Shown: positions 1,937 through 61,487 of the stretch, one piece after another
Numbering within the stretch: position 1 is the stretch's first letter
Layout: every line of letters begins with the position of its first letter
NCBI RefSeq assembly: GCF_019112545.1
Contig: NW_025064890.1
Location: 957,818 to 1,021,817, forward strand
Direction of reading: 5' to 3'
Origin: Guyanagaster necrorhizus
Lineage: Eukaryota > Basidiomycota > Agaricomycetes > Agaricales > Physalacriaceae
DNA length: 64,000 nucleotides
Program-made: the position numbers and the translations under genes
Notes under the pieces: generated by a model
The model's database searches: none
What the model was told of the DNA's origin: nothing
The model's input: the letters and a program-made list of their open reading frames with translations, nothing else

Positions 1937-2194
1937 CTACTCACTACAGGCACACCAAATATTAGCCATGTCCATGGATGACGCGTCAAGAAATACTCAC
2001 AGGAGCGACAACGTGATGTCACCATTAACCTTGGCCTGGATGGCAATTTCGACCTCGAGGTTGAGGTCCAAGCGGAGCTTCAAAGCCTCCTTGACGGGTG
2101 CGGCAGCCTGCCTATTGGAGCGGCCAACGACCTGTCCACCGACAGAGGAGAAAGAGGGCGAAGAGAACTTGGTAGCGGTTTCTGGGGCAGACAT
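1937..2194 (-). CDS. HT1, small beta-hairpin-tail protein, 66 aa
   Basis: Two exons: 2001-2194 and 1937-1943, with a 57-bp GTGAGT...TAG intron at 1944-2000. The spliced end reads Leu-Leu-Glu-TAG; without splicing translation would stop at TGA one codon after the last full exon-1 codon, losing only the final Glu. The start at 2194 is chosen because the TATA box (TATAAAAG, complement of 2224-2231) lies between it and an upstream in-frame ATG at 2293. The N-terminal tail is Ser/Ala/Pro-rich (MSAPETATKF..., then GGQVVGRSNRQAAAP), followed by KEALK and the invariant hairpin. No signal peptide or membrane segment is visible. Function unknown. Confidence 0.86.
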
Positions 2195-2294
2195 TGTTGT
2201 TGGATTAGAAACAACTTGCCCAGCTTTTATAGCATGAAGTCGGGTCGCAGCGTTTGGCTCCTCCGTTGCAACTAAACCCATTCTGGATTCCAAG

Positions 2295-3130
2295 TTTGCG
2301 GTACGTAACCCTCGCGATCCTGTGATACTTGGACTAATTCTGTGAACGCGCCTTCAAATCAAATAAAATGAAATCCAGACCAGAAGCGCCCTCACGGAGA
2401 CTTAGATTATGCCGTAAAAGCGGGCGTGCTTGGAGACCCGACGCTCGCTCTTGCTTCCATTCCACGTCGCTGCGTATCTATCGTCGCGAAACCCACCGAA
2501 TGTTCGTCGCAGAACTCGGCTCCCGAACCCTAGTTGCGGAAATAATGATCGATCGACAACGGAAGAGTGCGACACCGAGTTGGCCGAACACCTTGCGATG
2601 TCAGCCCGCTTTGATAGCTGTGCTTTGTCATTTCGGTACCTTGACATTCTCTACCATGAAGATGGTCTAATGACCATTCAAACTAAAGACCGGTCCCGGG
2701 AATAATTATGCAGTTCGTCTCTCCCATAATTCCTCCATTAACGCTGTTAATTGAAACACGAACAGATGTACCGGCGCTTTTGAATGTCATCATTTAGGCA
2801 CCCGGGAAGCGGGGACGCGAGAACACTGAACCATCTTAATTCTTCCCGAACCAATCAAGTGGAAACAGGAGTCTTTCTTTCGAACGGCAATAATGGCGGA
2901 AATCCAGTTCTCCAACCACCTAGAGACGCTATGGCCCAGACGCATCCGAGGATCTGGACGTGACGACCTCACTGATGGAACGGGATTTGGGGACACACGA
3001 CAGTCGCGTTTCCAGTCCGTGCCACGTTTGCTTTCCTGCGGGCAATCACCCCTGTGCGACCAATAACGGACTAGCCTTCCACCGTAGAGTCTCCGGTCAA
3101 TCTGCCTCTCCCTCCGGTGCGTAAGGGCAA
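2295..3130. other. Intergenic, nothing convincing
   Basis: It contains the HT1 upstream region and overlapping open frames of 80-115 codons on both strands, with no recognisable domain. I see no gene here. Confidence 0.4.
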
Positions 3131-3143
3131 CCATTCAGATGAG

Positions 3144-3222
3144 ACGCTGAAGCTCAGATTGAACCTCAACTTGATAGTCGAGATCTCCATTAAGGCGCAG
3201 GTCAACACCTTTCGCTTCTGCA
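3144..3222 (+). pseudogene. HT relic 1: decayed hairpin module
   Basis: Reading from 3144, the frame gives TLKLRLNLNLIVEISIKAQV, clearly the HT strand with polar-face substitutions. After GTCAAC the sequence resumes at ACCTTTCGCTTCTG, matching the family's ACCTTGTCGCTCCTG after a 9-base and a 1-base deletion, so the NGDI turn is gone and the frame is broken. No donor site, recognisable N-terminal tail or TATA box remains. The hydrophobic positions of the strand are all intact, which suggests loss after a period of normal constraint. Confidence 0.8.
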
Positions 3223-3224
3223 CG

Positions 3225-4060: not shown

Positions 4061-4062
4061 GT

Positions 4063-4328
4063 TTACTCACTACAATTAGAGTTTAGCGTACCGCATCACA
4101 ACCGAATAACAAAGGATCTGCTTACAGGAGCGAGAGGGTGATGTCACCGTTGACCTTGGCCTGGATGGCAATGTCGACCTCGAGGTTAAGATCTAACCTG
4201 AGCTTCAGCGCCTCCTTGGGGGCGACAGCTCCAGCACCGACACGAGCAGTCAGCTGACCATCCCTGGCTTGGGCATCAGCGGTAGCACCGAGAACAGAGA
4301 GATGAGTTTGAGCAGTTGGCTGAGACAT
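4063..4328 (-). CDS. HT2, small beta-hairpin-tail protein, 69 aa
   Basis: Exons are 4126-4328 and 4063-4069; the intron (4070-4125, 56 bp) starts GTAAGC and ends TAG. The product ends Leu-Leu-Glu-TAA. The tail differs from other copies (MSQPTAQTHLSVLGATADAQ, then VGAGAVAPKEALK), so it stands alone within the family. The hairpin has one change, EVE to EVD, on the polar face. A TATA box (complement of 4367-4374) lies 39 bp before the ATG. No function is known. Confidence 0.86.
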
Positions 4329-6290: not shown

Positions 6291-6294
6291 TGTG

Positions 6295-6386
6295 GCCCGC
6301 CTAGCTCAATCGGATAGAGCGTCAGACTCTTATCGTCTGAAGGCGGGTGAATCTGAAGGCTGTGGGTTCGACCCCCACGGTGGGCT
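6295..6386 (+). tRNA. tRNA-Lys (anticodon CTT) with an 18-bp intron
   Basis: The acceptor stem GCCCGCC pairs with GGTGGGC, including one G-U pair. The D stem is GCTC/GAGC, the anticodon stem TCAGA/TCTGA, and the T arm GTGGG-TTCGACC-CCCAC. The anticodon CTT is at 6329-6331. An intron at 6333-6350 sits after the base 3' of the anticodon, the standard position for nuclear tRNA introns. A T-run at about 6396 would serve as Pol III terminator. Confidence 0.93.
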
Positions 6387-6399
6387 ATCTAGTGTTCTT

Positions 6400-6909: not shown

Positions 6910-7098
6910 TCATAGGAGCGAAAGTGTGATGTCTCCCTCGACCTTTGCCTTGATAGCGATGACGACCTCGAGGTTGAGGTCCAAGCGTACTTCCAGTGTG
7001 TTCCCTCTATCCGCCATGCCGACGAACTCCTTGTGCTGGTCGTCGAAGGGAAAATTAGGTGCATCCAGGATAGTGGCGTAGAGAACTGGTTCGGACAT
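6910..7098 (-). CDS. HT3, divergent hairpin-tail protein, 62 aa, intron donor lost
   Basis: This is the most divergent open HT copy. The tail (MSEPVLYATILDAPNFPFDD...) is unlike the others. The hairpin reads VRLDLNLEVVIAIKAKVEGD then ITLSLL, so changes fall on the polar face apart from one Leu-to-Val swap. Where other copies have CTCCT-GTGAGT, this one has CTCCT-ATGAGT: the donor G is A, so the conserved intron cannot be spliced in the usual way. The in-frame TGA then ends the protein at Leu-Leu*. A TATA box (TATATAAG, complement of 7126-7133) is 28 bp before the ATG, and the distal HT motif lies at about 7383-7401. It may be active without the last residue, or early in decay. Confidence 0.7.
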   Translation of the reverse strand: MSEPVLYATILDAPNFPFDDQHKEFVGMADRGNTLEVRLDLNLEVVIAIKAKVEGDITLSLL

Positions 7099-10176: not shown

Positions 10177-10451
10177 ATGTCTTCTGAAACCGCTACCAGA
10201 TTCGCCACTTCTGAGAACACTGCTTTCGACAGTGAAAACCAGGCTGGACAAGTTGCCAATCGAGGCCTTGGACGTGGCGGTGTTGGCAAGCAAAAGGAGG
10301 CCCTCAAGCTCAGGTTGGATCTCAACCTCGAGGTCGAGATCGCTATCCAGGCCAAGGTCAACGGCGACATCACCCTTTCCCTCTTGTAAGTCTGATTTCT
10401 TTGCACGTTTTGTGATTGAATTTGGAGCTGAATTTCACATTTAGGGAGTAA
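10177..10451 (+). CDS. HT4, small beta-hairpin-tail protein, 71 aa
   Basis: Exons are 10177-10385 and 10445-10451; the 59-bp intron runs GTAAGT...TTTAG, the longest in the family. The end is Leu-Leu-Glu-TAA. The tail contains a Gly/Arg-rich segment, NRGLGRGGVGKQ, shared only with HT18 some 51 kb away, so these two form a subfamily. The hairpin is the consensus form. The ATG is 49 bp after the TATA box. No targeting signal is visible. Function unknown. Confidence 0.88.
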
Positions 10452-12205: not shown

Positions 12206-12456
12206 ATGTCTGCCCCAGAAACTGCTACCAAATTTGCACCTACCCAATCTTCCTCCGTCCTCGGTGGACAAATTGTCGGTCGCTCTGAGCGTCAGGCTGT
12301 TGCACCCCCCGCGGCTTTGAAGCTTCGTCTTGACCTTAACCTCGAGGTTGAGATCGCCATCCAGGCCAAGGTTAACGGCGACATCACCCTTTCTCTCCTG
12401 TGAGTTCATTGCGTTGATTCAGGTGCCCTTGAACTGACTGTTCTCCCAGCGAGTAA
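12206..12456 (+). CDS. HT5, small beta-hairpin-tail protein, 66 aa
   Basis: Exons are 12206-12399 and 12450-12456; the 50-bp intron runs GTGAGT...CCCAG. The end is Leu-Leu-Glu-TAA. The tail (MSAPETATKFAPTQSSSVLG, GQIVGRSERQAVAPPAALK) defines the largest subfamily, shared with HT10-HT13. The hairpin is the exact consensus. There is no signal peptide. Unspliced RNA would end at TGA after the second Leu, so both forms give nearly the same product. Confidence 0.9.
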
Positions 12457-13644: not shown

Positions 13645-14059
13645 TCATTCACTAGCAACGCGATATCAGCAGGAAAGTAAGAGGCAGAAATATGTCGACT
13701 CACAGGAGCGAGAGGGTGATATCCCCGTGAACCTTGGCTTGAATGGCGATCTCAACCTCCAAATTCAAATCCAACCTAAGCTTGCGACCTTCCTCATTGC
13801 TCCTCCTAGCGACGGGAGCAGGAGCGTCGTCAATAGCCCCAGTTCCACTGATAGAGTCCCATTCCTGCATCCCATTTAGGCTGCTGTTGGGCACGAAATC
13901 CCATTCCTTTCGTCGACCGCCGTAACCAGTACCACTGACGGATTCCCAGGCAGAAGCGGTGCTGATGCTGCTGGGTAAACCGTCGATGTCGGCGCGCGTA
14001 CTGGTAGGAGATTCACTATAGTATGGGAGCCCGCTGACGGTTTTAATGTTGTGCGACAT
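13645..14059 (-). CDS. HT6, long-tailed hairpin protein, 120 aa
   Basis: Exons are 13704-14059 and 13645-13651; the 52-bp intron runs GTGAGT...CTAG. The end is Leu-Leu-Glu-TGA, with the Glu encoded by GAA where most copies have GAG; the residue is kept although codon and stop differ. The tail is about 90 residues, twice the usual length, with Ser/Thr/Gly-rich repeats WESVSGTG (about residues 38-45) and EWDSISGTG (about 66-74). The hairpin has a single change, NGD to HGD. A TATA box (complement of 14092-14099) is 33 bp before the ATG. No secretion signal is visible. The extended tail may add an interaction region; this is inference. Confidence 0.83.
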
Positions 14060-17136: not shown

Positions 17137-17356
17137 TTACTCGCTGGAAAAACGAACAATCAGTGTAAGGGCGTGCCAGACTGCAATAATCGTCAACGTA
17201 CAGGAGGGAAAGGGTGATGTCCCCGTTGACCTTGGCCTGGATGGCGATCTCAACCTCGAGGTTGAGGTCAAGACGAAGCTTCAAAGCTTCCTTGGGTGCA
17301 ACGGTGCCCTGGTTGGAGCGGGTAGCAACAGAGGTAGTGGTTTGTGGGGCAGACAT
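17137..17356 (-). CDS. HT7, short hairpin-tail protein, 53 aa
   Basis: Exons are 17202-17356 and 17137-17143; the 58-bp intron runs GTACGT...TTCCAG. The end is Leu-Leu-Glu-TAA. This copy is informative because its donor is GTACGT: retained intron would not stop at once but add 24 unrelated residues, so splicing matters for the usual C-terminus. The tail is only about 22 residues (MSAPQTTTSVATRSNQGTVA) and is nearly the same as in HT8. The hairpin is the exact consensus. A TATA box (complement of 17392-17399) is 36 bp before the ATG. Confidence 0.88.
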
Positions 17357-19471: not shown

Positions 19472-20064
19472 TTAAAGGTCCTTGAAGCCCTCGGCGACGA
19501 TGAACCTCATCAAGTCGATGGTTGCAGAAAAGTTCTTTGGGGTACTGTCTCGAAGATCCCAAGACTCTTCGTTCTCGACGTCTGCCTTTATCCTCATGGT
19601 AGTCACCAAGATGTAGAAGTAAGTGGAAAGGCCGTAAAGGGGGATTGCAAACACCGCCCTGTATTCCCAGGAGCTATTGCCCTCGGAGGAGTTCTTTGAG
19701 AAATCTGCGAATCCTTTCTCCTTTTTCTCCTTCAAGTGGGTAAACGTCGTCTCGGTGATCTTTGCCAAATCATGTAGGTCTATCTCCGTTTGGAGGACAC
19801 CAAAGAGGAGGTAGGCGACCTCCCTAACGATCATGGACACCGCAGTGGGATCAGTCCGGGATGTGACATCCGTTTTGAACAGGTCAAAGGTGATTTCGCC
19901 GTTTGGGTGGTGATTGAGGGCGGCTTTGAAATCACTCCAGTTGAACTGTTTCCGGTTGGTCGTATCGTCGAATTTCACGGAATGGCCAACAAACTTGATG
20001 ACCTCCGTCACGGTGGGTTCGAGGTTCTTGGGCAACTTGGAAAACTGTTCGAATGCGGGCTTGT
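19472..20064 (-). CDS. Cyt-like cytolysin (volvatoxin A2 / Bacillus Cyt family), 5' end unresolved
   Basis: The main exon gives about 197 residues, open from an acceptor at 20065-20066 (TATGTAG) to TAA at 19472. The first in-frame ATG (20035) is internal to conserved sequence, so one or more short 5' exons are expected upstream of 20064, probably near 20190; I could not find a clean model. The protein has the alternating helix and beta-strand pattern and a conserved Trp/Tyr-rich central segment, which I recognise as the Cyt delta-endotoxin fold family, known in fungi from volvatoxin A2. Family members bind membranes and form pores. No secretion signal is seen. Full family proteins are somewhat longer, so the N-terminus may be missing or truncated. 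A broken paralogue lies at 21480-22140. Confidence 0.7.
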
Positions 20065-21200: not shown

Positions 21201-21479
21201 ACGCTTCACAGGACCTAGCAATGTGTTGGTCACGGTCTTATGGTCTCAATCCTCTTTCGTCCTACTTCCTGTGATCCCTTATCCAGACCAACCCTCCGAA
21301 GTCTTCCTTCACAACAAGGCCTATCTCATAATCTCCTTCAAGTACGTACCCTTTTTACACTTTGACCTTGACTCTGACCCCATTTATTGCCAACAGAGAC
21401 AAGTTCAACGCTAATCATTTGTCAGGCTTCTTTCTCCTTTGAATTCCTACTAAGCGACATCCTTATATAGCCGAGCTCG

Positions 21480-22140
21480 CCTTTGACCGATTTTCCAAGC
21501 TGCCCGAGAGTCTTGTACCCATCAGCATAGGTTTCATCAAGTTCCCCCGCCGTTGCATGAAATTCGACGACACGACCGATAAGAAACATTTCGACTGGAA
21601 GGACTTCAAGGCCGCCATCGATCGCTACCGGGGCCTCGATCTCGCCAATTTGTGTTCAACAGTACCGTCATGTCTCAAACTGATGTGACGGTGTCCGTTA
21701 TGGCCGGAAAGATCGTCACATTCCTCCTCGACGTCCTGCGAGCGGATGTAGACGTACACGAAGTGGGGATGACCTCAAGGCGACGTTTACCCACTTGACG
21801 GAGAACAAGGAGAAAGGGTTGGTAAAACTCTTCCAGTCGACCGAGGAGGGGAAGAGCTGCTGGGAGTACAAGCTGGCGTTTACGCTTCCCAACAAGTTCC
21901 TCCGCAATTACTTCAGTTCGCGCCAACATTAACCCCTCCGTAGATTTTTTTGATCGTCGAATTCGTCTTGATGTTTCCTCGAGCTTACTCGCCACGTCCA
22001 CTCGGTATCAAATGGTTTGAGCCATTTGGTAGGGGCCTCTCCCCCTTTGGTGATCACCATGAAGTTGGAGGCGAACATCAAGAACGAGGAGACTTGGGTT
22101 CTTCAAGGCAGCATCACCAAAAACTTACCATTGGTTCTCC
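21480..22140 (+). pseudogene. Cyt-like cytolysin pseudogene
   Basis: In shifting plus-strand frames this region encodes pieces clearly related to the gene at 19472-20064: an N-terminal segment near 21510-21660, a central segment near 21665-21915 and a C-terminal segment near 22050-22130. The pieces are separated by frameshifts and, around 21920-22045, by unrelated sequence. A remnant of the 5' part may begin near 21225, including a GTACGT donor-like site that aligns with one upstream of the intact gene. It cannot encode a full protein. It lies in opposite orientation to the intact copy. Confidence 0.65.
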
Positions 22141-24340: not shown

Positions 24341-24703
24341 ATCCGAAAAGACAGCAGCGATAAGATGTACGATTTCAATCAAACTAAAGGACTACGACAC
24401 GAATTGTTCCTAGCTACAGGTAGCAAAGTCCAAGACTCATGGTAGTAAATGAATATAAAAACCGGGACGATAGCAACTGAATGGACAGAAGGCAATATGA
24501 GTAAGGAACGATAGCAGTAGGTAAAAACGGGCAATGATAATAGGATGGGCGATTTTTTTGGGATTTTTGAATAAATATGCTGTCAGTGAATAACGATGAA
24601 CTTAAACGCATCGGAAGGGTGCTAGCCGATCTCGCTGACCTTGAAAAGAGGGTCAGAAATTTATGGAGTGCTACAGTAAGACATACAATTTCAGGACACG
24701 ATC

Positions 24704-24961
24704 TCAGGACATCTTAGCGGAGACGATGAACGCAGCGTCGGACGAAGCCGATGTTCCATCGTTGACAGTCAACTTGCCACTGTGGTAGTCGACACTGAAC
24801 ACAACGACACCGTTGACCTCGACAACATATTTTCCCGGCTTGCTGAATTTCAATTTCTCCGATTCCTTTATGTCTTTGGTGCTGCCGCCAGGTTGAATCA
24901 CAACACCATCCACAGCCCCTTCGTTAGACATGAAGAATGAACGGGTCGCGAAATTGGCCAT
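24704..24961 (-). CDS. Orphan 85-aa protein, left-arm copy
   Basis: An intact single coding exon. The protein starts MANFATRSFF and has Gly/Val-rich, strand-like stretches (KPGKYVVEVNGVVVFSVDY) and a Ser/Ala-rich end. No signal peptide, and I do not recognise the family. A TATA box (complement of 25179-25186) lies about 220 bp upstream, and a likely 5'UTR intron (GTATGT...AATATAG) separates it from the ATG, as in the other arm. The coding sequence gives the same protein as the right-arm copy at 49380-49637, so both copies may be active. Confidence 0.65.
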   Translation of the reverse strand: MANFATRSFFMSNEGAVDGVVIQPGGSTKDIKESEKLKFSKPGKYVVEVNGVVVFSVDYHSGKLTVNDGTSASSDAAFIVSAKMS

Positions 24962-27365: not shown

Positions 27366-27648
27366 AAGGGCAAGAATCGCACGTGGCTTCATTAGATCTG
27401 GTTCTTATCGGTAACGCTCATTTGTTCGTTGCTGCTGCTGATTCCCGCGCTTTTTTTCTGTTTCGTTCCTTCGTATTTCTCTCCTTAAAGCTGTAGATGA
27501 ATTGAACGGCAAGTCGCGAGGACTACCATCGGATCACGACACAATTCTTCAAGTTGAGTACACGTTGTTCACTGTATTAAACATGTATCCAGATGCCTGG
27601 GGCCAGTCACGCTACCATCTTGTTGCTATTAGGACCTTCGGTGTGAGA

Positions 27649-35054: not shown

Positions 35055-35305
35055 ATGTCTGCCCCAACTGCTACTCAATACACCACTGCCGAGACTTCCT
35101 CTGTCGCCGGCGGACAACTCGTCGGCCGCTCCAACAAGGGCGCCGTCGCTCCCAAGGAAGCTTTGAAGCTTTGCTTGGACCTCAACCTCGAGGTTGAGAT
35201 CGCCATTCAGGCCAAGGTCAATGGTGACATCACCTTGTCACTCCTGTGAGTTGTGTTCCGCCTCCTGAGGTATTCTCAAGCTGACGTTCAAATTTTAGTG
35301 AGTAA
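35055..35305 (+). CDS. HT9, small beta-hairpin-tail protein, 65 aa, with a Cys in the strand
   Basis: Exons are 35055-35245 and 35299-35305; the 53-bp intron runs GTGAGT...TTTTAG. The end is Leu-Leu-Glu-TAA. The tail (MSAPTATQYTTAETSSVAGG...) groups it with HT14, 17 kb away. The strand reads LCLDLNLEV where all others have LRLDLNLEV: a unique Arg-to-Cys change on the polar face, the only Cys in the family's hairpins. It could allow disulfide or thiol chemistry or simply be neutral. The ATG is 39 bp after the TATA box. Confidence 0.88.
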
Positions 35306-36686: not shown

Positions 36687-36939
36687 ATGTCTGCCCCAGA
36701 AACCAAATTCGCACCTACTCAATCCTCTTCTGTCCTCGGCGGACAGATTGTCGGTCGCTCTGAGCGCCAGGCTGTTGCACCCCCCGCAGCTCTGAAGCTC
36801 CGTCTTGACCTTAACCTCGAGGTTGAGATTGCCATCCAGGCCAAGGTCAACGGTGACATCACCTTGTCGCTCCTGTAAGTTGATGCCCATTGTCCACCTT
36901 GGGCGTGCTGATGCTGATTATCTGGCATTTAGCCAGTAA
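36687..36939 (+). CDS. HT10, small beta-hairpin-tail protein, 64 aa, terminal Gln
   Basis: Exons are 36687-36874 and 36933-36939; the 58-bp intron runs GTAAGT...TTTAG. The last exon reads C-CAG-TAA, so the product ends Leu-Leu-Gln: the only copy with Gln. The start at 36687 is 36 bp after the TATA box; an earlier in-frame ATG lies upstream of that box. The tail (MSAPETKFAPTQSSSVLGGQ) belongs to the HT5/HT11-HT13 subfamily and lacks the AT pair of HT5. The hairpin is the exact consensus. Confidence 0.87.
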
Positions 36940-37970: not shown

Positions 37971-40405
37971 CAGTTGACTATCTCACAATGCATATGGTCG
38001 GGAGACACCAAAACCATATGCATTTATAGATTTATGCAGAACCAAAATAGCATGTGATGTGACATGTGACTTTATGTGACAANNNNNNNNNNNNNNNNNN
38101 NNNNNNNNNNNNNNNNNNNNNNNNNNNNNNNNNNNNNNNNNNNNNNNNNNNNNNNNNNNNNNNNNNNNNNNNNNNNNNNNNNNNNNNNNNNNNNNNNNNN
38201 NNNNNNNNNNNNNNNNNNNNNNNNNNNNNNNNNNNNNNNNNNNNNNNNNNNNNNNNNNNNNNNNNNNNNNNNNNNNNNNNNNNNNNNNNNNNNNNNNNNN
38301 NNNNNNNNNNNNNNNNNNNNNNNNNNNNNNNNNNNNNNNNNNNNNNNNNNNNNNNNNNNNNNNNNNNNNNNNNNNNNNNNNNNNNNNNNNNNNNNNNNNN
38401 NNNNNNNNNNNNNNNNNNNNNNNNNNNNNNNNNNNNNNNNNNNNNNNNNNNNNNNNNNNNNNNNNNNNNNNNNNNNNNNNNNNNNNNNNNNNNNNNNNNN
38501 NNNNNNNNNNNNNNNNNNNNNNNNNNNNNNNNCTTCAACATTATCTCTGCTGTCTGGAGCTGTTGAATGGGGGCAATTTGGGTGGGAGGTGTGTTCATTT
38601 TTGACTGTGACGAAGAAGCCAACTGATTGACTGCCTCCAGTGCTTTACCAACATCGTTCTCTGCATTCATAACAGCCATAAGAGCAGGATGCCAGTCAGC
38701 ATCAGCATATTGGTTTCCAAGCAGATCCTGCAATGCCTGTTCGATCCCTGGAAGCGTGTATTTGTCTGTTGAGGCAAAGTCACGAACAAGGTTCCAGGCA
38801 GACTTGAAGAGTGAGGCAGCTTGGAAATCATTGGATGGTGTGGTAGACTGTGACTCAGGTGCATTGTCAGGCATTATACCGGTGTGTTTCCAGCAGTTTG
38901 CTATCGTTTCACTGCTGACATTTGCCCAAGCATCACGAGCGATAGTCATAGCTTCAAGGAGATCAAGCTTGAAGATCTCAGACTCTCCAAGATCATCGAG
39001 ATCAAGTGCACGGATACACATGGCATTCCGATAATGTGCCTTGAAGCAGCGGATAATACCAGCATCTAGCGGCTGAACATATGGAGTCATATTGGGCTCG
39101 AAGAACTCCAGCTTTGTGTTATGGGGTGTATAAGCGATGGAATGCCCTCGAAAGTTGTCCAAGGTCAGCAGAACCTGCCGCATCTCCCTCTTCATCTTTA
39201 AATCAAACATCTTCACCCACTCCGTAAATATTTTGCTCGTCATCCAGGCCTTCTTGTTATTCCGATAATAGAATCCCATTGCCATTGGACTCTTTTTTTT
39301 GAAACACCGTGGTTGCTTTGACTTGCCAATGAAAACAACTGGCATTTGCTCACTCCTATCTGCATTCACAGCAAAACACATGGTGATGCGGAACTTGTCC
39401 TGTTTTCGTCCACTCATAGGACCAGATGCCAAGGTACGATCTGGGATGGCAAAGATGACAAGACCGGATTCATCAATATTCCATCTGTCCCACATCGCAT
39501 ATTTTGCCATAATGCTGTGAAGACGCATACGTTCTTTTTTCACTGCTATTATATCCACTGAGCCTGCTTCTCCATGCCACCGAACCTCCTGAATCTTCCA
39601 TGCCTTGCAGAATGACCTCAACCATCCCTTTCCTTTCAAACACTGATCCTCTGGAATATTCATCAGATTTTCAATCCGATTTCGCTTCTCTATCAGCATT
39701 GCACCAGTCACAGTCTCATCTCGGAGCTGCATGTTCTGATACCAGGATGCAACAGCATGCTCCACATCAGGTCGGGTGACAATACGAGACTTTTTGGATG
39801 ATAGTGCATTAGGGTTCTCGTTTGCACGCTGTTCGATTTTTGTACAAGATGCCAGTTTCCGTGAAAGAGTTGATTGGGTAAAGAGCAGTGCACCTTCCTT
39901 TCGGTTTGCGAAATGTGCCACAATGTCAGCATGTCGATGGGAAGGATGGTTATCAACGTGTTTGAATACTACGAGCCAGTCTCCTGTTGTGAGGTGTGGG
40001 CGGGAGATCTGCTTTGGAGGCTGAGCTGATGATGTGTATATTGGGACTTTCTCCTTCTGTTTTGTATGCTCATATGGATTTCCAGGTTTAGCACGTGGTT
40101 TTCGTGTTGGTTCAGGAGGCATGTTTATAGAGATATAGGCTGCGTTGCTTTACAATAATTTTTTTTGTGTTTGTCATAGTCCATACAAACAAATTATGTT
40201 CTTTATTGTTCTAATATATGCATAATGTCATATCAGCTTACTATAATTTTCGATCTGACAATGCATATTCCTAACTAGAACCATATGCATTATGCGATAT
40301 GCATTTCTAGCCCATTTCCCTGCTCCCCAACTGCGTTCCAGCCCAATCCATATGCAAAGTCAGAATTATGCATTTCGACATCATGCATTGTGAGATAGTC
40401 AACTG
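37971..40405 (-). mobile_element. Pogo/Tc1-type DNA transposon with 23-bp inverted ends
   Basis: The ends are perfect inverted repeats beginning CAGTTGACTATCTCACAATG (37971-37993 and complement of 40383-40405), flanked by TA on both sides (37969-37970 and 40406-40407), the expected target duplication of the Tc1/mariner superfamily. Length is 2435 bp with a 450-base run of N at 38083-38532. Motifs ATGCATATGG / CCATATGCAT recur just inside both ends. It sits between HT10 and HT11. Perfect ends and a long open transposase frame suggest recent insertion. Confidence 0.9.
38032..40122 (-). CDS. Pogo-like DDE transposase (interrupted by assembly gap)
   Basis: It is open from ATG 40122 to the gap, about 530 residues, with a short end beyond the gap. 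A basic N-terminus is followed by helix-turn-helix DNA-binding regions of the CENP-B/Tc5 type (about residues 45-190, including SWYQN and KGWLRSF). The DDE catalytic core follows: D217 in WNIDESG, D322 in LTLDNFRGH and D353 in VQPLDAGII, with 30 residues between the last two, as in pogo/Fot1 elements. These enzymes cut and paste the element at TA sites in the nucleus. The three acidic residues are intact, so it may be active, but the gap hides about 150 residues. The final 16 residues after the gap are uncertain. Confidence 0.88.
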   Translation of the reverse strand: MPPEPTRKPRAKPGNPYEHTKQKEKVPIYTSSAQPPKQISRPHLTTGDWLVVFKHVDNHPSHRHADIVAHFANRKEGALLFTQSTLSRKLASCTKIEQRANENPNALSSKKSRIVTRPDVEHAVASWYQNMQLRDETVTGAMLIEKRNRIENLMNIPEDQCLKGKGWLRSFCKAWKIQEVRWHGEAGSVDIIAVKKERMRLHSIMAKYAMWDRWNIDESGLVIFAIPDRTLASGPMSGRKQDKFRITMCFAVNADRSEQMPVVFIGKSKQPRCFKKKSPMAMGFYYRNNKKAWMTSKIFTEWVKMFDLKMKREMRQVLLTLDNFRGHSIAYTPHNTKLEFFEPNMTPYVQPLDAGIIRCFKAHYRNAMCIRALDLDDLGESEIFKLDLLEAMTIARDAWANVSSETIANCWKHTGIMPDNAPESQSTTPSNDFQAASLFKSAWNLVRDFASTDKYTLPGIEQALQDLLGNQYADADWHPALMAVMNAENDVGKALEAVNQLASSSQSKMNTPPTQIAPIQQLQTAEIMLKXXXXXXXXXXXXXXXXXXXXXXXXXXXXXXXXXXXXXXXXXXXXXXXXXXXXXXXXXXXXXXXXXXXXXXXXXXXXXXXXXXXXXXXXXXXXXXXXXXXXXXXXXXXXXXXXXXXXXXXXXXXXXXXXXXXXXXXXXXXXXXXXXXXXXXLSHKVTCHITCYFGSA

Positions 40406-40753: not shown

Positions 40754-41001
40754 ATGTCTGCTCCAGAAACCAAATTCGCACCTACTCAATCCTCTTCCGT
40801 CCTCGGTGGACAGATCGTCGGTCGCTCCGAGCGTCAGGCTGCCCCTCCCGCAGCCGTGAAGCTTCGTCTTGACCTTAACCTTGAGGTTGAGATCGCCATC
40901 CAGGCTAAGGTCAACGGCGACATCACCTTGTCGCTCCTGTAAGCACCGTTTCCTATGCTGGCGCGTCATCGGGGCTGATTGTCCATTTTTACAGTGAGTA
41001 A
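40754..41001 (+). CDS. HT11, small beta-hairpin-tail protein, 63 aa
   Basis: Exons are 40754-40938 and 40995-41001; the 56-bp intron runs GTAAGC...TTACAG. The end is Leu-Leu-Glu-TAA. The tail is of the MSAPETKFAPTQ type, ending QAAPPAAVK, with Val for Leu before the strand. The intron differs from that of the frameshifted HT13 at only one of 56 bases, although the upstream exons differ more, which suggests conversion or a recent partial duplication between the two. The ATG is 38 bp after the TATA box. Confidence 0.89.
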
Positions 41002-42333: not shown

Positions 42334-42585
42334 TTACTCACTATGAAAACAAACAGTCAACCCGACGACGTGCCAACACGACCAAAACACTCACAGGAGC
42401 GACAAGGTAATGTCACCGTTGACCTTGGCCTGGATGGCAATCTCAACCTCGAGGTTAAGGTCAAGACGGAGCTTCAAAGCTGCGGGAGGGGCAGCCTGGC
42501 GCTCAGTGCGGCCGACGATCTGTCCACCGAGAACGGAGGAGGATTGGGTAGGTGCGAATTTGGTAGCGGTTTCTGGGGCAGACAT
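42334..42585 (-). CDS. HT12, small beta-hairpin-tail protein, 65 aa
   Basis: Exons are 42395-42585 and 42334-42340; the 54-bp intron runs GTGAGT...CATAG. The end is Leu-Leu-Glu-TAA. The protein encoded before the strand end is identical to that of HT13, including GRTERQAAPPAALK, but the introns of the two are unrelated. The hairpin is the exact consensus. A TATAAAAAG box (complement of 42621-42629) is 36 bp before the ATG, and CTATCCTAATCCAG, as in HT10 and HT13, precedes it. Confidence 0.89.
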
Positions 42586-43377: not shown

Positions 43378-43627
43378 ATGTCTGCCCCAGAAACTGCTAC
43401 CAAATTCGCACCTACCCAATCCTCCTCCGTTCTCGGCGGCCAGATCGTCGGCCGCACTGAGCGCCAGGCTGCACCCCCTGCAGCTTTAAAGCTCCGTCTT
43501 GACCTTAACCTTGAGGTTGAGATTGCCATCCCAAGGTCAACGGTGACATCACCTTGTCGCTCCTGTAAGCACCATTTCCTATGCTGGCGCGTCATCGGGG
43601 CTGATTGTCCATTTTTACAGTGAGTAA
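43378..43627 (+). pseudogene. HT13, hairpin-tail gene with 4-base deletion
   Basis: The copy is intact until GCCATCC at about 43531, where AGGC is missing relative to GCCATCCAGGCCAAGGTC; the frame then leaves the hairpin after EVEIAI. The donor (GTAAGC, 43565), acceptor (TTACAG, to 43620) and TGAGTAA end are all kept. Read unspliced, the shifted frame stops at 43623. Tail and first half of the strand match HT12 at the protein level, but the intron matches HT11 at 55 of 56 bases, so the copy is mosaic. The decay is recent. Confidence 0.88.
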
Positions 43628-46690: not shown

Positions 46691-47004
46691 TTGCTCACAC
46701 TGAAGGTGCTAATAGCAACAATATGGTAGCGTGACTGGCCCCAGGCATCTGGATACATGTTTAATACAGTGAACAACGTGTACTCAACTTGAAGAATTGT
46801 GTCGTGATTCGATGGTAGTCCTCGCGACTTGCCGTTCAATTCATCTACAGCTTTAAGGGGAGAAATACGAAGGAACAAAACAGAAAAAAAGCGCGGGAAT
46901 CAGCAGCAGCAACGAACAAATGACGGTTACCGATAAGAACCAGATCTAATGAAGCCACGTGCGATTCTTGCCCTTTCGTGTCTCGCCTGCAGCAACTATG
47001 GATT

Positions 47005-47850
47005 CATCAACCTCCTTCCTCCCGAGTGAAAGCTACAATCTCTCAAGGCTGTCCATTCGCAATTCCTAGAAGGGTCACGACCATTGATTGACTCCGACTA
47101 TACGGTCTATATCTTTGTCGAGTTGGAACAGCTGCAATCCTCGTATATCCATCGATGGCGATATAAAGTCCTGGAAGCCCTCGAAAGTCGCAATTACCAT
47201 CTGCCATCTTCCCCGAGATGTTCTCATTGAAATATTTCACTTTTCTGGCGACCCGCAGTGGTGATACCCACCAAGATATGATAGTTTAAATGTAGCCAGG
47301 CCCCTTTGGATTCTGGGCTGTGCCTGTGGGCTTTGGAGAGATACGTTACACATGTCCCCTGCTTCATGGGCTCATAGGCTTGTCGTGAAGGTCTCTTCCT
47401 CTAAGCACATCTTGAAGGCTGTTTTGGATCACACGCGAACCTCCTCTCAATCTGTACATCTTCTGCGACACAGCAGCAAGCTGACAGAAGATGGATCGCT
47501 AGAAGAACCTTGTGTTCATTCTCATTGTCATGTATCTTACCCACCTCTTGGAAGCTGTCACAATTGAAACAGAAACATCTCCGTCACTACGTTTCTAATT
47601 ATCGCTTGGATACGTGTTTAAATGCTCCGAAGTGGTGGAAAACAACGCTTCCAAGGCCAAGGGATCCATATGCATCAACTGAGGTTACCGCTTGATGATT
47701 CCAGTGATATCACTTGCCGTTGATATTCAACTTCCTGGTATGACAGCAGAGTGCGAAAGGCCATTTAGTTCCGGAGAGATTTGTAGTGGTCGGTTCAGCA
47801 CCGTGTGCAGGATGGCTATTAGATACTCCGTATTCAGCGCTTAGACGAAT
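47005..47850 (+). pseudogene. F-box protein relic in right arm
   Basis: Mirror copy of 26490-27365 with the same stops and deletions. The recognisable order is Cys-rich start, coiled segment, SSPRDVLIEIF at the F-box position, a WAHRL segment after about 47350 and NYRLDTCLNAPKWW near 47600. Confidence 0.65.
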
Positions 47851-47859
47851 ACCTCCGCG

Positions 47860-49150
47860 ATTGATTGACGATTTCAGTGTTATTTTGGTTTGAGATATTG
47901 GCTGGGATGGATGTACAAATGCTCCTCCGAAATCTCCTTGCTCGTCCAGATGTTATCCCAGTAATGTAAAAAACCTATTTCCACGTATTGTAACTATCAC
48001 TGTTCTTCAATCTGGAGAGGCGATCAGCACAGATTCCGACAAGGGCCAGAAGAAGGTCTGTTACTCAGTTAAAGCTTTCCATTCAAGCCATTCGCTGTCA
48101 ATGAACTAGCGGTGACGCCTCGCACGAAGCACATCTGGGAGTGTGATTAATATTAGGCGACAAGGGCAGTCGCGGTGACTGGAACTTTGTATTTGGACTT
48201 GATCAGCGACGTGGTGTAACTAAGGCCGCATGTACTTGTGACGCGCTTGAATCTCTCGAAAAATATCGTCCTTTGTCGTACAATACGCAGGACCCACATG
48301 CAGGATCTCGCCCAGACTGTGACTGCTGCCTGATGTGATTGACGCGTCTGTCACGGCACGCTTCACACGCTAGTGGAAATTTGACGTTGGGAATGTCTCA
48401 GGTGGCGATGCACCAGTTGTCTCCTGACCATTCTTTTCAGACGCCCAAGTGCATCATAAGCGCGCGCCAATGACAACCAATTCGTGGATGACTGGACTTC
48501 CTCAAGCCTCAGGTGATGTGAACATCTCCGCCGGGCGGTGATGGTTGGGATGCGAGACAGCAAATCACCAATTGAACGTTGCCCCATCCTGTCTGGCTCT
48601 TGTGCTAAAGGTGATATCCTTAATCCTCATGTTCCCCGCATGCTCGTCTATGATTGGGTCAGAATATCCTCACATGTCATTCATATTATGGTCATTTATA
48701 ATATCATTGTTGACTGAATGTGATTTTACTATAGGATGATAATGCAGCGCGTTCAATGGAGCCTGAGCTCCATAGCTATGAAATATTTGGGCGTCTAAAT
48801 GATGTCCATTGTAGCGTCCTGCATATCATAAATGGTTCGACACTACTCCAGCGCTGTTTTGGTTAGTGGAGGTGAAAAACCAGTACTACGAAATGGCTCC
48901 TTTCCCCGGATCTCAAATGAAGAGAACACAGAAAAAGTTCATGCTAGTTCAATGCTAGATGTCAATGTCAGACACTGGCAGGCATATTTCCCTCGCAACT
49001 TTTTCTCAATAACATTGTTCCATCAGGTCATCAGGTCCGACGAACTGGTTTCCTCCTCCCAGTTGAATATGTTTGGAGAAATCCCCCAGGAATTAACCTT
49101 GTTTTTGGACAAGTTCTTTCGAGTTCACCGGGCCGCCGTGCAACATCCCT
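47860..49150. other. Arm interior without recognised gene
   Basis: An open frame of 106 codons at 48832-49152 ends just before the TATA box of the orphan gene, and the same frame exists in the other arm. With only one recent duplication separating the copies, its survival proves little, so I do not call it. Confidence 0.35.
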
Positions 49151-49154
49151 AAGG

Positions 49155-49359
49155 TATAAAAGCTCACCCCTTCGTCTCTCAAAAGCGTCAAGCACCATTG
49201 CCCAGCTTCTTTAATCGACTTGTATGTCCCATTCCATTGTTTCTAGTTGCACTTGTGTTTGCTCATTCTCTACTATTCGGCTGATAGCACCTGACCGCCA
49301 ACTACATCTCCAAGGTGTGCGCATACTATCTTTAACCCTGACGCGCAACTGAAATATAG
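49155..49359 (+). promoter_or_regulatory. Promoter and likely 5'UTR intron of the orphan gene
   Basis: TATAAAAG at 49155-49162; a probable 138-bp intron from GTATGT at 49222 to AATATAG at 49359; no ATG occurs between the TATA box and the donor. The coding ATG follows 20 bp later. Confidence 0.5.
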
Positions 49360-49379
49360 CACTCCACCAGACAATCGTC

Positions 49380-49637
49380 ATGGCCAATTTCGCGACCCGT
49401 TCATTCTTCATGTCTAACGAAGGGGCTGTGGATGGTGTTGTGATTCAACCTGGCGGCAGCACCAAAGACATAAAGGAATCGGAGAAATTGAAATTCAGCA
49501 AGCCGGGAAAATATGTCGTCGAGGTCAACGGTGTCGTTGTGTTCAGTGTCGACTACCACAGTGGCAAGTTGACTGTCAACGATGGAACATCGGCTTCGTC
49601 CGACGCTGCGTTCATCGTCTCCGCTAAGATGTCCTGA
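49380..49637 (+). CDS. Orphan 85-aa protein, right-arm copy
   Basis: It encodes the same 85 residues as the left-arm copy (24704-24961), with no visible amino-acid difference. It is intact, with TATA box and candidate leader intron upstream. The sequence suggests a small soluble beta-rich protein (Gly/Val-rich centre, DGTSASSDAAFIVSAKMS at the end). Family not recognised. The start was chosen as the first ATG after the likely acceptor. Confidence 0.65.
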   Translation: MANFATRSFFMSNEGAVDGVVIQPGGSTKDIKESEKLKFSKPGKYVVEVNGVVVFSVDYHSGKLTVNDGTSASSDAAFIVSAKMS

Positions 49638-50089
49638 GATCGTGTCCTGAAATTGTATGTCTTACTGTAGCACTCCATAAATTTCTGACCCTCTTTTCAA
49701 GGTCAACCAGATCGGCTAGCACCCTTCCGACGCGTTCAAGTTCATCGTTATTCACTGACAGCATATTTATTCAAAAATCCCAAAAAAATCGCCCATCCTA
49801 TTATCATTGCCCGTTTTTACCTACTGCTATCGTTCCTTACTCATATTGCCTTCTGTCCATTCAGTTGCTATCGTCCCGGTTTTTATATTCATTTACTACC
49901 ATGAGTCTTGGACTTTGCTACCTGTAGCTAGGAACAATTCGTGTCGTAGTCCTTTAGTTTGATTGAAATCGTACATCTTATCGCTGCTGTCTTTTCAGGC
50001 CCGACATGAAGGCGGGAGGACTTGTCCTAACTTCCCTGAACAACGGTCTGGTAGATGCTATGCTTGGGGATCATGCGGGATAAACGTAC

Positions 50090-52375: not shown

Positions 52376-52627
52376 ATGTCTGCCCCAACTACTACTCAAT
52401 ACACCACTGCTGAGACCTCTTCCGTCGCTGGCGGACAACTGGTCGGCCGCTCCAACCAAGGCGCCGTCGCTCCCAAGGAAGCCTTGAAGCTTCGCTTGGA
52501 CCTGAACCTTGAGGTGGAAATTGCCATCCAGGCCAAGGTCAACGGCGACATCACCTTGTCGCTCCTGTGAGTGGATTTCATGCCGTGGTATCCTCTGGCT
52601 AATTGTCCTTTTTTTATTAGCGAGTAA
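52376..52627 (+). CDS. HT14, small beta-hairpin-tail protein, 65 aa
   Basis: Exons are 52376-52566 and 52621-52627; the 54-bp intron runs GTGAGT...TATTAG. The end is Leu-Leu-Glu-TAA. The tail (MSAPTTTQYTTAETSSVAGG, GQLVGRSNQGAVAPKEALK) is nearly that of HT9. The hairpin is the exact consensus, with several synonymous differences from HT9, which points to selection on the protein. Confidence 0.89.
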
Positions 52628-54237: not shown

Positions 54238-54500
54238 TCAGTCGCTGAAAATTGCATTCAGCCTGAATTTGTCGGGATAGTCAAGTTCACTCACAGGAGA
54301 GAGAGCGTGATGTCGCCGTGGACCTTGGCTTGAATCTGGATCTCGACCTCGAGGTTGAGGTCCAACCTGAGCTTGAGCGCCTCCCTGTGTCTTTGGTGGG
54401 GAATTATGGCCGCTGGGACGTGGGCGATGTGCTTCTCACCACCAGCAACGGTGGGGTGCTCGGCGGTAGCAAATTTGGCAGCATTTTGAGGAGAAGACAT
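54238..54500 (-). CDS. HT15, small beta-hairpin-tail protein, 70 aa, terminal Asp
   Basis: Exons are 54295-54500 and 54238-54244; the 50-bp intron runs GTGAGT...TTTCAG. The last exon reads C-GAC-TGA, so the product ends Leu-Leu-Asp, keeping the negative charge. The tail is distinctive (MSSPQNAAKFATAEHPTVAG, then GEKHIAHVPAAIIPHQRHRE), rich in His. The strand reads EVEIQIQAKVHGD, with two polar-face changes. A TATA box (complement of 54541-54548) is 41 bp before the ATG. Confidence 0.84.
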
Positions 54501-56261: not shown

Positions 56262-56521
56262 ATGCCTGAATCTGCTTCTTCTCGCGCTTCCTCTCCTGGT
56301 GGTCCTGCCCATAACCAAGCTACCACCATTCACAAACCAACCTATACTCAAGCTGTCGCTAAGCCGTATAGGGAGGCGCTGAAGCTCAGGCTGGACCTCA
56401 ATCTTGAGGTCGAAATCGCCATCAAGGCAAAAGTCAATGGCGACATCACCCTCTCTCTCCTGTGAGTCTCTGACCTGCTGGAGTATTCTCAATGGGTTCT
56501 AACTTGTTCTACAGCGAGTAG
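56262..56521 (+). CDS. HT16, small beta-hairpin-tail protein, 68 aa
   Basis: Exons are 56262-56461 and 56515-56521; the 53-bp intron runs GTGAGT...CTACAG. The end is Leu-Leu-Glu-TAG. The tail (MPESASSRASSPGGPAHNQA, TTIHKPTYTQAVAKPYRE) is unique. It starts MP where most copies start MS. The hairpin has Gln-to-Lys in IAIKAKV, as in HT17. The ATG follows the TATA box with no intervening ATG. Confidence 0.86.
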
Positions 56522-57976: not shown

Positions 57977-58251
57977 TTACTCCCTGAAAGTGTAGTTAGG
58001 GACACGGTACTGCGAACCGAGCTCGAACCCACTCACAAAAGGGAGAGGGTGATATCACCGTTGACCTTGGCCTTAATGGCGATCTCAACTTCGAGGTTCA
58101 GGTCCAAGCGAAGCTTCAGCGCTTCCCTTTGCTTCCCACCGAGCCTTCCGAGGGAAGGTTGGGTGAGAGCACCGGCAGCGGGGTCGTCGCTACCACTACG
58201 AGGAGCGGGGGCAGAGCCAAAGATAGAAGGGGCAGCGGAAACTGAAGACAT
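57977..58251 (-). CDS. HT17, small beta-hairpin-tail protein, 73 aa
   Basis: Exons are 58037-58251 and 57977-57983; the 53-bp intron runs GTGAGT...TTTCAG. The last codons are CTT-TTG-GAG-TAA. The tail is Ser/Ala/Pro/Gly-rich (MSSVSAAPSIFGSAPAPRSG, then LTQPSLGRLGGKQREALK). The strand carries IAIKAKV, as in HT16. The start at 58251 is preferred over an ATG 36 bases upstream because of family resemblance (MSS...) and because the TATA box (complement of 58304-58311) is then 53 bp away. Confidence 0.85.
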
Positions 58252-58319
58252 TTTGTGATATTTGAACTGAAGGTTCGATAGAATCACTTGTCAAATTCGA
58301 GGCCTTTTATATGCGCATT

Positions 58320-61210
58320 CACTACTACGCGTTACAAAAGTGAGTGAAAGTGAACCGATTGTCCCGTTATAGCAACTTGGGTAATCTTGGAAGAGAGTAC
58401 CTTCAAGATGAACCGCAAGTTCACGAGCGGTCATGAAATTCCAGCTAGTATGCCGGTGGCGTATGCTGCGCTAAACAGATTCTCATAAGTGTGTGATGGG
58501 CTATCTGTATGGCGACTTAGGCGGAGGAAATTAAAACGTATCTCGAAAGGCCGCGATTGGTGGTAACTCTTGCCGGTGCGATTGTATATGGTTTCCGAAC
58601 GGCTCCTCAAAAAACCGAGTTGAACCACAGCCTCCTTGAATTGAACTAGGCTCGGTCGATGCGGTTTCACCCGAGCTGTACCAAAGCGACAGCTTTGTGT
58701 GTAGATGGGTAACGACAACCCGTGTCGAAGGGACTCCAAACGGGTCATTATTCTGCACTTGTCAGAAATACATTCTTTTCAGATGTCGCACAAACGTTTC
58801 GTGCCTTCGCCAAGGTACTGGATTTCTACTCCGTTCCTCTGCTTGATGTTTCTTCAAAGTCCTTGTGATCTCATTGTTCGGTAGCCATTCGTGTTTACGC
58901 TGATGATTATGAAAACCATTTTGGGAGAATCGGGAATCCCGACGTACCGGCTCTGCGAGGTCTCACGCAATATCCGCCGGACTTCAAATTCACTGTAGCC
59001 TTTACTCCTTCAAGAGGGGTCGGGTATGGAAGCTGTTTTTATTGTCTTTGTCTTGGCGTAGGCCGGGAAGTAGCGTGGCTCGTTCAGCGCAGTCCTGAGC
59101 TTGACGAAAAAAACCTCGGAACGTTTTCTATGGCTATTAGCTTCCAAATGGAGAATGGAATGCAAAGCCAAGAAGGCTTTGTTTACCAATAGAGCAGAGC
59201 AGCTTACATGAGCTGTAATTGCCTTGGGAAAAAAACGCAATTGCGCATTCATTCGCGACGGAAGAGCCGGGATGTCGTGAAAAACGTTGGCCGAGAATGG
59301 TTACGAGACGGTCTCCTGGCACTAGACACATTCTAGGCTTAATGATTCAAGTTGAAGTTTGTAAGGCAGACGGAAACCGTGTTACACGGGAACGAAGGCC
59401 GTGAAACTCTGAGGCTCAATGGAGTTCATGGCCAATTAGCGCTTAGCAACAACTTACTGGGTAACAATCCATTTGCTTTGAGGTCTGGACTGAACTCTGT
59501 CAAACGTACCAATCAAAACGCTGAATCTTCGGACAGACCTTCCCCTCCCCACGGAAGTTCCGATTGGAAGACAAAAATATAACCCGAAATTGGGGTGCTC
59601 ACCTGGTCTTTCCAGCTCACTAAGAGCATGACAGTCCACGGTGAATGCTGGCGAGCGCGGAAACTTTCCGCAATATGTGGGTCGGGTCCGATCAATATCC
59701 TTGTTACTCAATACTATTGACTCGCAAATGGTTGATTCTTCCACCCAGTCGCTTGAAAGCTTACGGATCGGTGAATTCCTGTTGCGGCAGAAACCGGCCA
59801 CCATCACGTGTACTTCGACCACCCACTCGCCTGGTGGCTGTTCATTCCACGTGGCTATTGAATCTTGATTCCATCAGATTCAGTTTGAACAGCGACAATG
59901 TTCTCGACTTGGACTCAATGGCATGACTGTAGGTAATGACGCCGAGCCTCGAGTTTTGCGACGATCGTATCACACCCTTCTGACTTCGGATGTAACCGTT
60001 GAAGGTACCGCGTACTGCGTGTGGTCATTTTTTCTTCCAAGTTGCTGAGACCGGGGTTTGAGTGAGGGGCATTCTTTCCGAAACGCAGCACGGCAGGCCG
60101 TTGAATTCGCATGTGGAAATGGGTAATTGCAAGGTACGAGTTGCTTTTCCTGTGCGTTTAGGTTCTTTTTGAGGCGAAGAACAACCGTAGAAATCTGAGT
60201 TGAACCAGCCAATCGGACGGCTTCAGCCATGAGGCTCTTCGACGCTTCACTGCAATGTGCGAGGCCAGACTCAATAGACCAAATGTTAATGTGCTTACAG
60301 TGTTAGCAGCTCCGCAGCCAACTCAACATGAGCTTCAACACGAGTGGTACACGCTGTATTTTTCGGGTACGTACGTTTCTCCATACCCCCAGATTATAAT
60401 GGTCGAGCATTTCCCTTGAACTTGGGCTCCACTCCAAGTGCCGCAATCCATTTCCTTTCCGATTCTTGGTTTCTCCTCTACGAGCTAGGGTACTGATTGA
60501 ATATATTTATTAGCGCGTGTCAGTCGTCGATAAACCGACTTGGCACGCGTTAATTGAGATTGTCGCCAGTATTGACGCGTCTCGTTTGAGTATGACGTAA
60601 TATGCATCACCGCGATATGCTCAGAGCTATAACCCGCGGACGGCGTCAAGCGTGACCTCACCTTGCCCTCCTATGCTTAAAGTAGTAGTTCCTTACGGTT
60701 TCATGCAACGATAACGAACCCCAGATCACTCTAATTCGCTTCTCCAATGATCTGTCTCAAACGAATGGTGCAGCAAGTAAATGAAGCAGATTTACAAGTA
60801 CATCCACATGTACTTTACACAATAAGTCAATGCTCTCACAAGTACTTACTTTGAACTCTGCTTGATCATTGCCAGAGCACAAGAAAGTAATTTATCTGAC
60901 GCTCAACATGCCCATAAGGCATTGACCATGAAAGTAAGACATGTCGCTTCGTGTAGAAGCCCAATCACGCTAACAATGCCACTTTTCAAACATAAACAAC
61001 AGTGAGAATTGGGCAATCGTAAGTAACTATCATCATATTTCATCAAACACCAAACTATGTAAAGAAAAATCCTTCCAGCACCGAAATCTTCGCAATCAAA
61101 AGTCCCAACCATTACGATCCTGCAAGGAAATCCTAAGTACCCCAAATTAACAGAAATGATAAGCTAACCTGACAATCCAACAACCAGTCCTTTTGATCAC
61201 TCAGATTCGA
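58320..61210. other. 2.9 kb without a recognisable gene
   Basis: Frames up to about 120 codons occur on both strands between 58431 and 60230, none with recognisable domains or splice-joined continuity that I could follow. It may be an old, decayed element or gene. It ends with the 3' flank of HT18. Confidence 0.3.
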
Positions 61211-61217
61211 GATACAT

Positions 61218-61487
61218 TTACTCGCTGTAAGCCAGGATTAGGATACAACGAAAACTGAACAGGCAGGTACTAGCTCACAGGAGAGAAAGAGTAATGTCGC
61301 CGTTGACCTTAGCCTGGATGGCGATCTCGACCTCGAGGTTGAGGTCCAAACGGAGCTTCAGAGCCTCCTTTTGCTTTCCAACACCGCCGCGGCCCAATCC
61401 CCTGTTGGCAGCGGGGGCGACTTGGTTTTCAGCAGCTGGGGCAAAGGCAGTAGCAGTGGGAGCAAATGAGGTTTGAGGAGAAGACAT
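61218..61487 (-). CDS. HT18, small beta-hairpin-tail protein, 71 aa
   Basis: Exons are 61279-61487 and 61218-61224; the 54-bp intron runs GTGAGC...TTACAG. The end is Leu-Leu-Glu-TAA. The tail (MSSPQTSFAPTATAFAPAAE, then NRGLGRGGVGKQKEALK) shares the Gly/Arg segment of HT4. The start at 61487 is 47 bp after the TATAAAAA box (complement of 61534-61541); an ATG at 61544 lies upstream of that box. The hairpin is the exact consensus. Confidence 0.88.

Follow-up and report, generated by a model that had tools for sequence, protein, structure and literature searches.

A multicopy family of tiny proteins with a conserved, strictly alternating C-terminal motif in Guyanagaster necrorhizus

Self-assembling peptides of the EAK16, RAD16, KLDLKLDLKLDL and FEFK types are characterised by binary alternation, in which hydrophobic residues strictly alternate with charged or polar ones; as presented in PMC8355586, they are short (≤16 residues) and repetitive, some being designs and others fragments of a yeast protein. 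The same strict alternation is found at the C-terminus of a family of tiny proteins encoded in a 64,000-nucleotide stretch of the Guyanagaster necrorhizus genome (the window; positions 957818–1021817 of contig C11 in the 53.3-Mb assembly, whose contigs are given below as C-numbers). The peptide KLDLKLDL (PMC8355586) is close in kind to KLRLDLNLEVEIAI of the family. The likeness is one of sequence alone, and the family differs in that its 28-residue C-terminus is natural, conserved, non-repetitive and present in 42 copies.

Hydrophobins are likewise small, multicopy, amphipathic fungal proteins, and they share with the family a beta-rich assembly, which is proposed for the latter. However, the family has no eight-Cys pattern (Cys occurs in two of the 42 copies), no strongly hydrophobic stretch near the N-terminus and no significant Pfam match, and a hydrophobin reading was dropped. 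Fungal amyloid signalling motifs of the HET-s, PP and sigma types are paired with NOD-like receptors (NLRs), NACHT or NB-ARC proteins that carry the motif too and are usually encoded next to it. The family is likewise proposed to have a short terminal motif that forms beta structure, but this motif lies in frames of ≤156 aa and not in a NACHT protein; the seven NACHT matches are on other contigs (C36, C39, C46 and C52), and on this search for NACHT the reading was dropped as well. The claim made from the sequence alone, that no characterised family with this design is known, agrees with the database searches. In Pfam, 55 members gave no significant match (hits to six families, every one of them in a single member, with 0.028 as the lowest E); NCBIfam and PDB gave none either, with one weak match (0.012, six members, far below the cut-off) and one at E 0.34, respectively. 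Among the papers searched, none names the peptides or six locus-tag stems looked for, and none of those listed by broader searches was on the family as judged by title or the start of the abstract.

Gene architecture, promoters and distribution of the family

A tblastn search with the 26-residue core of the motif, LRLDLNLEVEIAIQAKVNGDITLSLL, identifies 19 places in the window, on both strands, with antisense and noise rows left out (Table 1); further rows are weak, at about 17–23 bits. The 19 places comprise 17 open copies, one copy frameshifted inside the motif and one relic. A sequence-only reading of this DNA had listed 18 open or recently broken loci and two relics; the 18 were recovered, and one relic was found. 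The span that it assigned to the family begins exactly at the stop codon of the first copy (position 1937) and ends at the ATG of the last (61487). Its 16 two-exon models are also exact: in 16 of the 17 open copies an N-terminus that begins with the ATG and varies between copies leads into the motif, and a GT–AG intron of 50–59 nt after ...SLL precedes one codon and a stop.

The assembly as a whole contains at least 42 open copies at E ≤ 0.001 (best 1.3e-9), and chance resemblance is excluded by this number of matching places in the family's own genome. Thirty of the 42 are on C11 between 853 and 1046 kb, and 12 are on C13, C14, C20, C27, C33, C45, C54 and C92. The proteins are 50–133 aa long before the last codon, with a median of about 64. 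The common intron position and gene end extend to 40 of the 42 copies, in which an intron precedes the last codon and its acceptor leads to one residue and a stop. This residue is E in 34 copies, Q in three, and D, S and R in one each, the other two copies being without a readable end; the stop codons are TAA (30), TGA (7) and TAG (3). Many public models have unrelated tails past SLL, and a further AG frequently lies four bases downstream in the splice junction, producing tails like LKCA.... Since 40 of the 42 copies possess an acceptor giving one residue and a stop, the short end is the better reading. An unspliced transcript would end at the donor (of the CTG TGA or CTG TAA kind) in 38 of the 42 copies, yielding the protein minus one residue.

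The copies share a promoter element, as the sequence-only reading had proposed: a TATA box, TATAAAAG (at least seven of eight bases), is located 30–69 nt before the ATG in 37 of the 42 copies, and 33–60 nt before it in the window. In a slightly narrower range it is present in 36 of 42 copies versus 1.6% of 4000 random stretches, and an A occupies position −3 in 38 of 42; in both counts one start is set too late. Further upstream, a comparison of 36 non-redundant promoters with random window stretches shows enrichment of the words CGTTACGTA, TATGAAATA, GTTAAGTTGCT and GAGGCACCCG; ten of the 36 contain none of the words tested. A genome search aimed at finding other co-regulated genes, using the pair AAGTTGCT-N5-GAGGCACCCG with ≤2 mismatches, gave nine matches versus two in a reversed-pattern control. 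Eight of the nine are directly upstream of a family copy, one of these being the frameshifted copy, and the remaining one is on C5. Common descent accounts for part of this sharing; the survival of the words where introns hardly align suggests that they are in use, and the family members are probably regulated together.

A search of public proteins found 160 proteins, and a profile search found 361 at E ≤ 0.1; among the 120 listed of the former and the best 120 of the latter, every organism-named protein belongs to Armillaria, Desarmillaria or Guyanagaster. The named homologs among the matches listed are all armillarioid and are deposited as hypothetical or uncharacterized proteins. Clustering is also seen in a second species, Armillaria ostoyae, where a single contig of 430,646 bases holds ten members (locus tags in the range ARMOST_19625 to 19669). 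The armillarioid ancestor, from a clade that includes Armillaria, is dated to about 51 million years in PMC5264464, and from these matches the family would be at least as old as the clade. A diverged member is encoded at C13:234014–234415 (−); it matches at 62% identity and has 133 aa with a serine-rich N-terminus. Its intron is at the same place, its last codon is R, and GTTAAGTTGCT and GAGGCACCCG (≤2 mismatches each) are present in its promoter, 16 bases apart. The relative of this gene in Desarmillaria ectypa is 87% identical, and when the C13 protein was used as a query for other fungi, one Desarmillaria protein was among the 48 candidates; the gene is possibly close to the founder of the family. 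Three nearly identical copies of one subtype are located on different contigs (C27:568560, C33:86503 and C92:7586), and probably represent a recent segmental duplication.

Selection on the motif and the N-terminal subtypes

The last 29 codons are represented by 40 distinct DNA sequences in the 42 copies, and a single peptide is shared by 29 of them, in line with the earlier description of the motif as almost fixed with many synonymous differences. The sequence-only reading had also proposed selection at the protein level, a claim that a ratio of nonsynonymous to synonymous change (dN/dS) near 1 over the motif was set to refute. The refutation fails: for the 39 core copies, the ratio of the proportions of nonsynonymous (pN) and synonymous (pS) differences is 0.066 (mean pS 0.518, pN 0.034). 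Over the motif, pS is 0.550 and pN 0.059 in the 17 window copies, and 0.537 and 0.053 in all 42; GDITLSLL is invariant in 42 of 42. Within three subfamilies of ten, six and six copies, pN/pS is 0.040, 0.018 and 0.031 in the motif and 0.114, 0.137 and 0.240 in the N-terminus. The corresponding pS values are 0.346, 0.292 and 0.469 in the motif versus 0.316, 0.224 and 0.279 in the N-terminus. As motif pS is not below N-terminal pS, the motif is not younger, and conversion limited to the motif is therefore no explanation. Intron identity is 0.61–0.67 within subfamilies, 0.58 over all pairs and 0.56 ± 0.04 for shuffled introns; taken with motif pN/pS, this low identity means that conservation is at the protein level and not a result of recent copying. 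The central claim, that of an expanded family of tiny proteins selected as proteins, is thus real (42 copies, pN/pS about 0.07).

The N-termini are not the free tails that they had been taken for, since they are under constraint and their subtypes are found again in other genera. Strong differences between them, also noted earlier, exist between subfamilies but not within them. In 22 of the 42 copies the N-terminus matches a copy of another genus at least as well as any paralog, a count that includes ties, weak matches and one copy with a wrong start, and in which the other-genus set is that among the matches listed. Clear cases are the copies at 4063–4328 (90% versus 47% for the paralog), 56262–56521 (80% versus nothing comparable), C20_985401 (87% versus 64%) and C11_1046044 (86% versus 73%). 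Since they are shared between genera whose armillarioid ancestor lived about 51 million years ago, at least several subtypes are probably of that age. Preferred two-fold codons make up 82% of those in the motif, 59% in the N-termini and 45% in the background; by the same measure the values are 65% and 50% for two actin-family exons and 53% for two elongation-factor-type exons (four of eight loci being readable), and 48%, 46% and 66% for three window open reading frames (ORFs).

The alternating C-terminal motif and its candidate modes of action

The motif, (A)LKLRLDLNLEVEIAIQAKVNGDITLSLL, has 28–29 residues, after which a single residue, in most copies E, ends the protein. Its 28 residues alternate without fault between hydrophobic and polar, which gives a hydrophobic face, LLLLLVIIAVGILL, and a polar face, KRDNEEAQKNDTSL. 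The peak of the hydrophobic moment, at 180 degrees, has a height reached in none of 5000 shuffles, and the diverged C13 protein behaves likewise at 62% identity. In 135 of 141 database motifs (23 of them distinct), all 14 face sites are hydrophobic or Gly, the search pattern itself fixing much of the last eight sites. With this peak and these motifs, the family displays the strict two-residue alternation by which binary-alternating self-assembling peptides are defined. The 42 copies contain 25 deviations over 15 polar-face sites versus 13 over 14 hydrophobic-face sites, and the 141 database motifs contain 42 versus 36; both faces are thus constrained, the polar one less so in the family's own copies.

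The sequence-only reading had treated the motif as a hairpin. The alternation runs unbroken through NGD, so that no hairpin is needed; one is possible nonetheless, as a turn of three residues would preserve the alternation as well. An AlphaFold2 (AF2) model of one copy (55 sequences) has a mean predicted local distance difference test (pLDDT) score of 65, with blocks of 72–82 from residue 31 on, a predicted template modelling (pTM) score of 0.20, no strands assigned and no fold match. A two-motif protein from the database, in which neighbouring genes have probably been annotated as one, is modelled from 22 sequences with continuous, paired 30-residue strands at 50–79 and 114–143 (mean pLDDT 59, motif blocks mostly 70–77, pTM 0.27). 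Both models are weak and give hints only, but neither shows the hairpin as the sole reading would have it, the motif being unpaired in one and continuous in the other. A Foldseek search with the two-motif model gave 112 weak matches, none at E ≤ 0.001 (best 0.017); stems of membrane pores make up most of the 50 listed, and flagellar-ring and phage-tail proteins also occur among them. The highest 12-residue mean hydropathy near the N-terminus is 1.13 over the 42 copies, and by this measure, no signal-peptide predictor having been run, there is no hydrophobic leader. The proteins are probably cytosolic, which fits the intracellular location suggested earlier.

In the absence of a significant domain or structure match, function has to be argued from design. 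The mechanism that fits best, and which is put forward tentatively, is that of a beta-strand tag by which the proteins co-assemble inside the cell. Members would form a sheet by edge-to-edge pairing of their C-terminal strands, and two such sheets would pack hydrophobic face to hydrophobic face. Paralogs would in this way build mixed filaments or patches displaying different N-termini. Mutual fit of the members would hold all copies to one strand sequence, and the low-complexity, subfamily-specific N-termini would carry the subtype function. The near-identical strands, the constraint on both faces, the conserved N-termini and the single promoter type are the reasons for which co-assembly fits best and docking to a partner nearly as well. 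A more far-reaching and more doubtful version is a co-polymer system of >40 paralogs, in which one promoter type, a shared 28-residue self-assembling strand and differing N-terminal tags would give mixed intracellular filaments or condensates, with the active copies determining their surface.

Several observations weigh against co-assembly. The AF2 models have the low scores given above, neither has a significant fold match, and the pairing in the second may arise for any two beta-prone stretches. In the family's own copies, changes on the polar face are about twice as frequent as on the hydrophobic one, as for a plain solvent-facing side, and a parallel in-register sheet stacks like charges, so that another order would be needed. 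A strand docking to a conserved partner, moreover, predicts much the same conservation. As to the role of the family, one confined to melanized rhizomorphs is unlikely, because Guyanagaster and Desarmillaria, according to PMC5264464, are not known to make them in nature.

If the C-terminus instead docks, a conserved partner would take it up at the edge of a sheet (beta-augmentation); the copies would then be interchangeable ligands of one hub, with N-termini that vary the outcome. The near-invariance of the motif across copies and genera of a clade about 51 million years old, with diverse N-termini, is consistent with this, as is the C13 gene, which retains GDITLSLL and the alternation in spite of its divergence. 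However, no partner gene was recognised among the 21 neighbouring ORFs scanned (one transposase, one F-box-like, two weak below-cut-off matches and 17 without a match), and a fully alternating strand of 28 residues is long for a docking motif; docking is possible, if doubtful. Strand length also counts against a membrane- or interface-active amphipathic strand forming an oligomeric beta-barrel, a pore or a lipid-coating layer inside the cell, as a bilayer-spanning strand is much shorter. The entirely hydrophobic face and the pore stems that prevail among the listed Foldseek matches point in this direction, but none of the 112 matches reaches E 0.001 and such stems resemble any long ribbon, and a membrane role is unlikely.

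It is still less probable that the proteins are corepressor-binding peptides, in which LRLDLNLEV might bind a corepressor of the Tup1/Topless type. The plant EAR motif has the core LxLxL or DLNL, as well as a DLNxxP form, bound by Topless, and LDLNL is present in nearly all copies. It sits, however, in a much longer strand, the rest of which is at least as conserved, GDITLSLL above all; the C13 member has IELHL instead, and there is no hydrophobic leader. A selfish or non-coding dispersed repeat with an incidental reading frame would explain the many copies on both strands, the relic and the frameshifted copy in the window, but it is largely contradicted already and very improbable: besides the low pN/pS, the frame continues beyond an intron into a last codon that is conserved, all three stop codons are used, most promoters keep the TATA box and subtypes are common to several genera. 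A transposable element or miniature inverted-repeat transposable element (MITE), whose copies would be recognised by common ends and not by a reading frame, was rejected too, since the longest repeat between copies is 396 bp, around the gene, and the protein is selected; the ends were not searched one by one. Mating pheromone precursors, which resemble the family in size and copy number as products of tiny multicopy genes, have the slightest probability of all. None of the 40 readable copies has a C-terminal CaaX, and the 17 STE3 matches are on C32, C12, C21 and C7, none of them a contig with family copies; the pheromone reading was dropped on these grounds.

Features of the window and meaning of the family

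Table 1. Members of the family in the window. Lengths are those before the intron; "+ E", "+ Q" or "+ D" is the last residue, after the intron.
Feature	Position	Strand	Description
Family copy	1937–2194	−	65 aa + E; intron 2000–1944; TATA box 37 nt before ATG
Relic	3141–3206	+	motif fragment without open gene
Family copy	4063–4328	−	68 aa + E; MSQPTAQTHLSVLG subtype; N-terminus 90% identical to Desarmillaria ectypa copy
Diverged open copy	6913–7098	−	changed splice donor ATGAGT; without conserved last codon
Family copy	10177–10451	+	70 aa + E; GLGRGGVGKQ subtype
Family copy	12206–12456	+	65 aa + E; LGGQIVGR subtype
Family copy, longer N-terminus	13645–14059	−	119 aa + E; TATA box 40 nt before first ATG
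Family copy	17137–17356	−	52 aa + E; ATRS subtype
Family copy	31344–31558	−	51 aa + E; ATRS subtype
Family copy	35055–35305	+	64 aa + E; GQLVGRSN subtype; motif R to C
Family copy	36687–36939	+	63 aa + Q; LGGQIVGR subtype
Family copy	40754–41001	+	62 aa + E; LGGQIVGR subtype
Family copy	42334–42585	−	64 aa + E; LGGQIVGR subtype
Recently broken copy	43378–43565 (to last motif codon)	+	frameshift inside motif; public model BT62DRAFT_1005343
Family copy	52376–52627	+	64 aa + E; GQLVGRSN subtype
Family copy	54238–54500	−	69 aa + D
Family copy	56262–56521	+	67 aa + E; MPESASS subtype
Family copy	57977–58251	−	72 aa + E; APSIFGSAPAPR subtype
Family copy	61218–61487	−	70 aa + E; GLGRGGVGKQ subtype

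Other features lie between the copies. A 3.3-kb inverted repeat pair (24345–27647 and 46694–49996) is 98.8% identical and contains no family copy; it is much younger than the gene family. A 696-aa ORF at 38032–40122 (−), in a low-GC stretch at 36–40 kb, has DDE_1 and Tc5-type helix–turn–helix domains. The 187-aa ORF at 19472–20035 (−) has a weak, below-cut-off Bac_thur_toxin match (E 1.2e-4) and a 66% inverted relative at 21324–21881, and the 302-aa ORF at 29383–30291 (−) has an F-box-like match barely above the cut-off. A tRNA-like gene is located at 6294–6387 (+) (Rfam tRNA, 55 bits); its anticodon is read by ARAGORN as a stop anticodon, perhaps because an intron-containing nuclear tRNA was read with a bacterial setting.

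The relatives among the matches listed carry no functional name. There is nevertheless strong evidence that the proteins have a function, since purifying selection acts on tens of copies and subtypes are shared between genera. Public gene models, which often overrun the likely true end, hamper profile building and proteomics for these proteins. If the proposed assembly is true, this would be, to our knowledge, the first protein family defined by one long binary-alternating strand. With this strand, it can be tested cheaply and directly whether the binary-alternating self-assembly code occurs in nature as the tail of a protein; if the strand assembles, it would be a source of assembly tags and would represent a new intracellular structure in mushroom cells.

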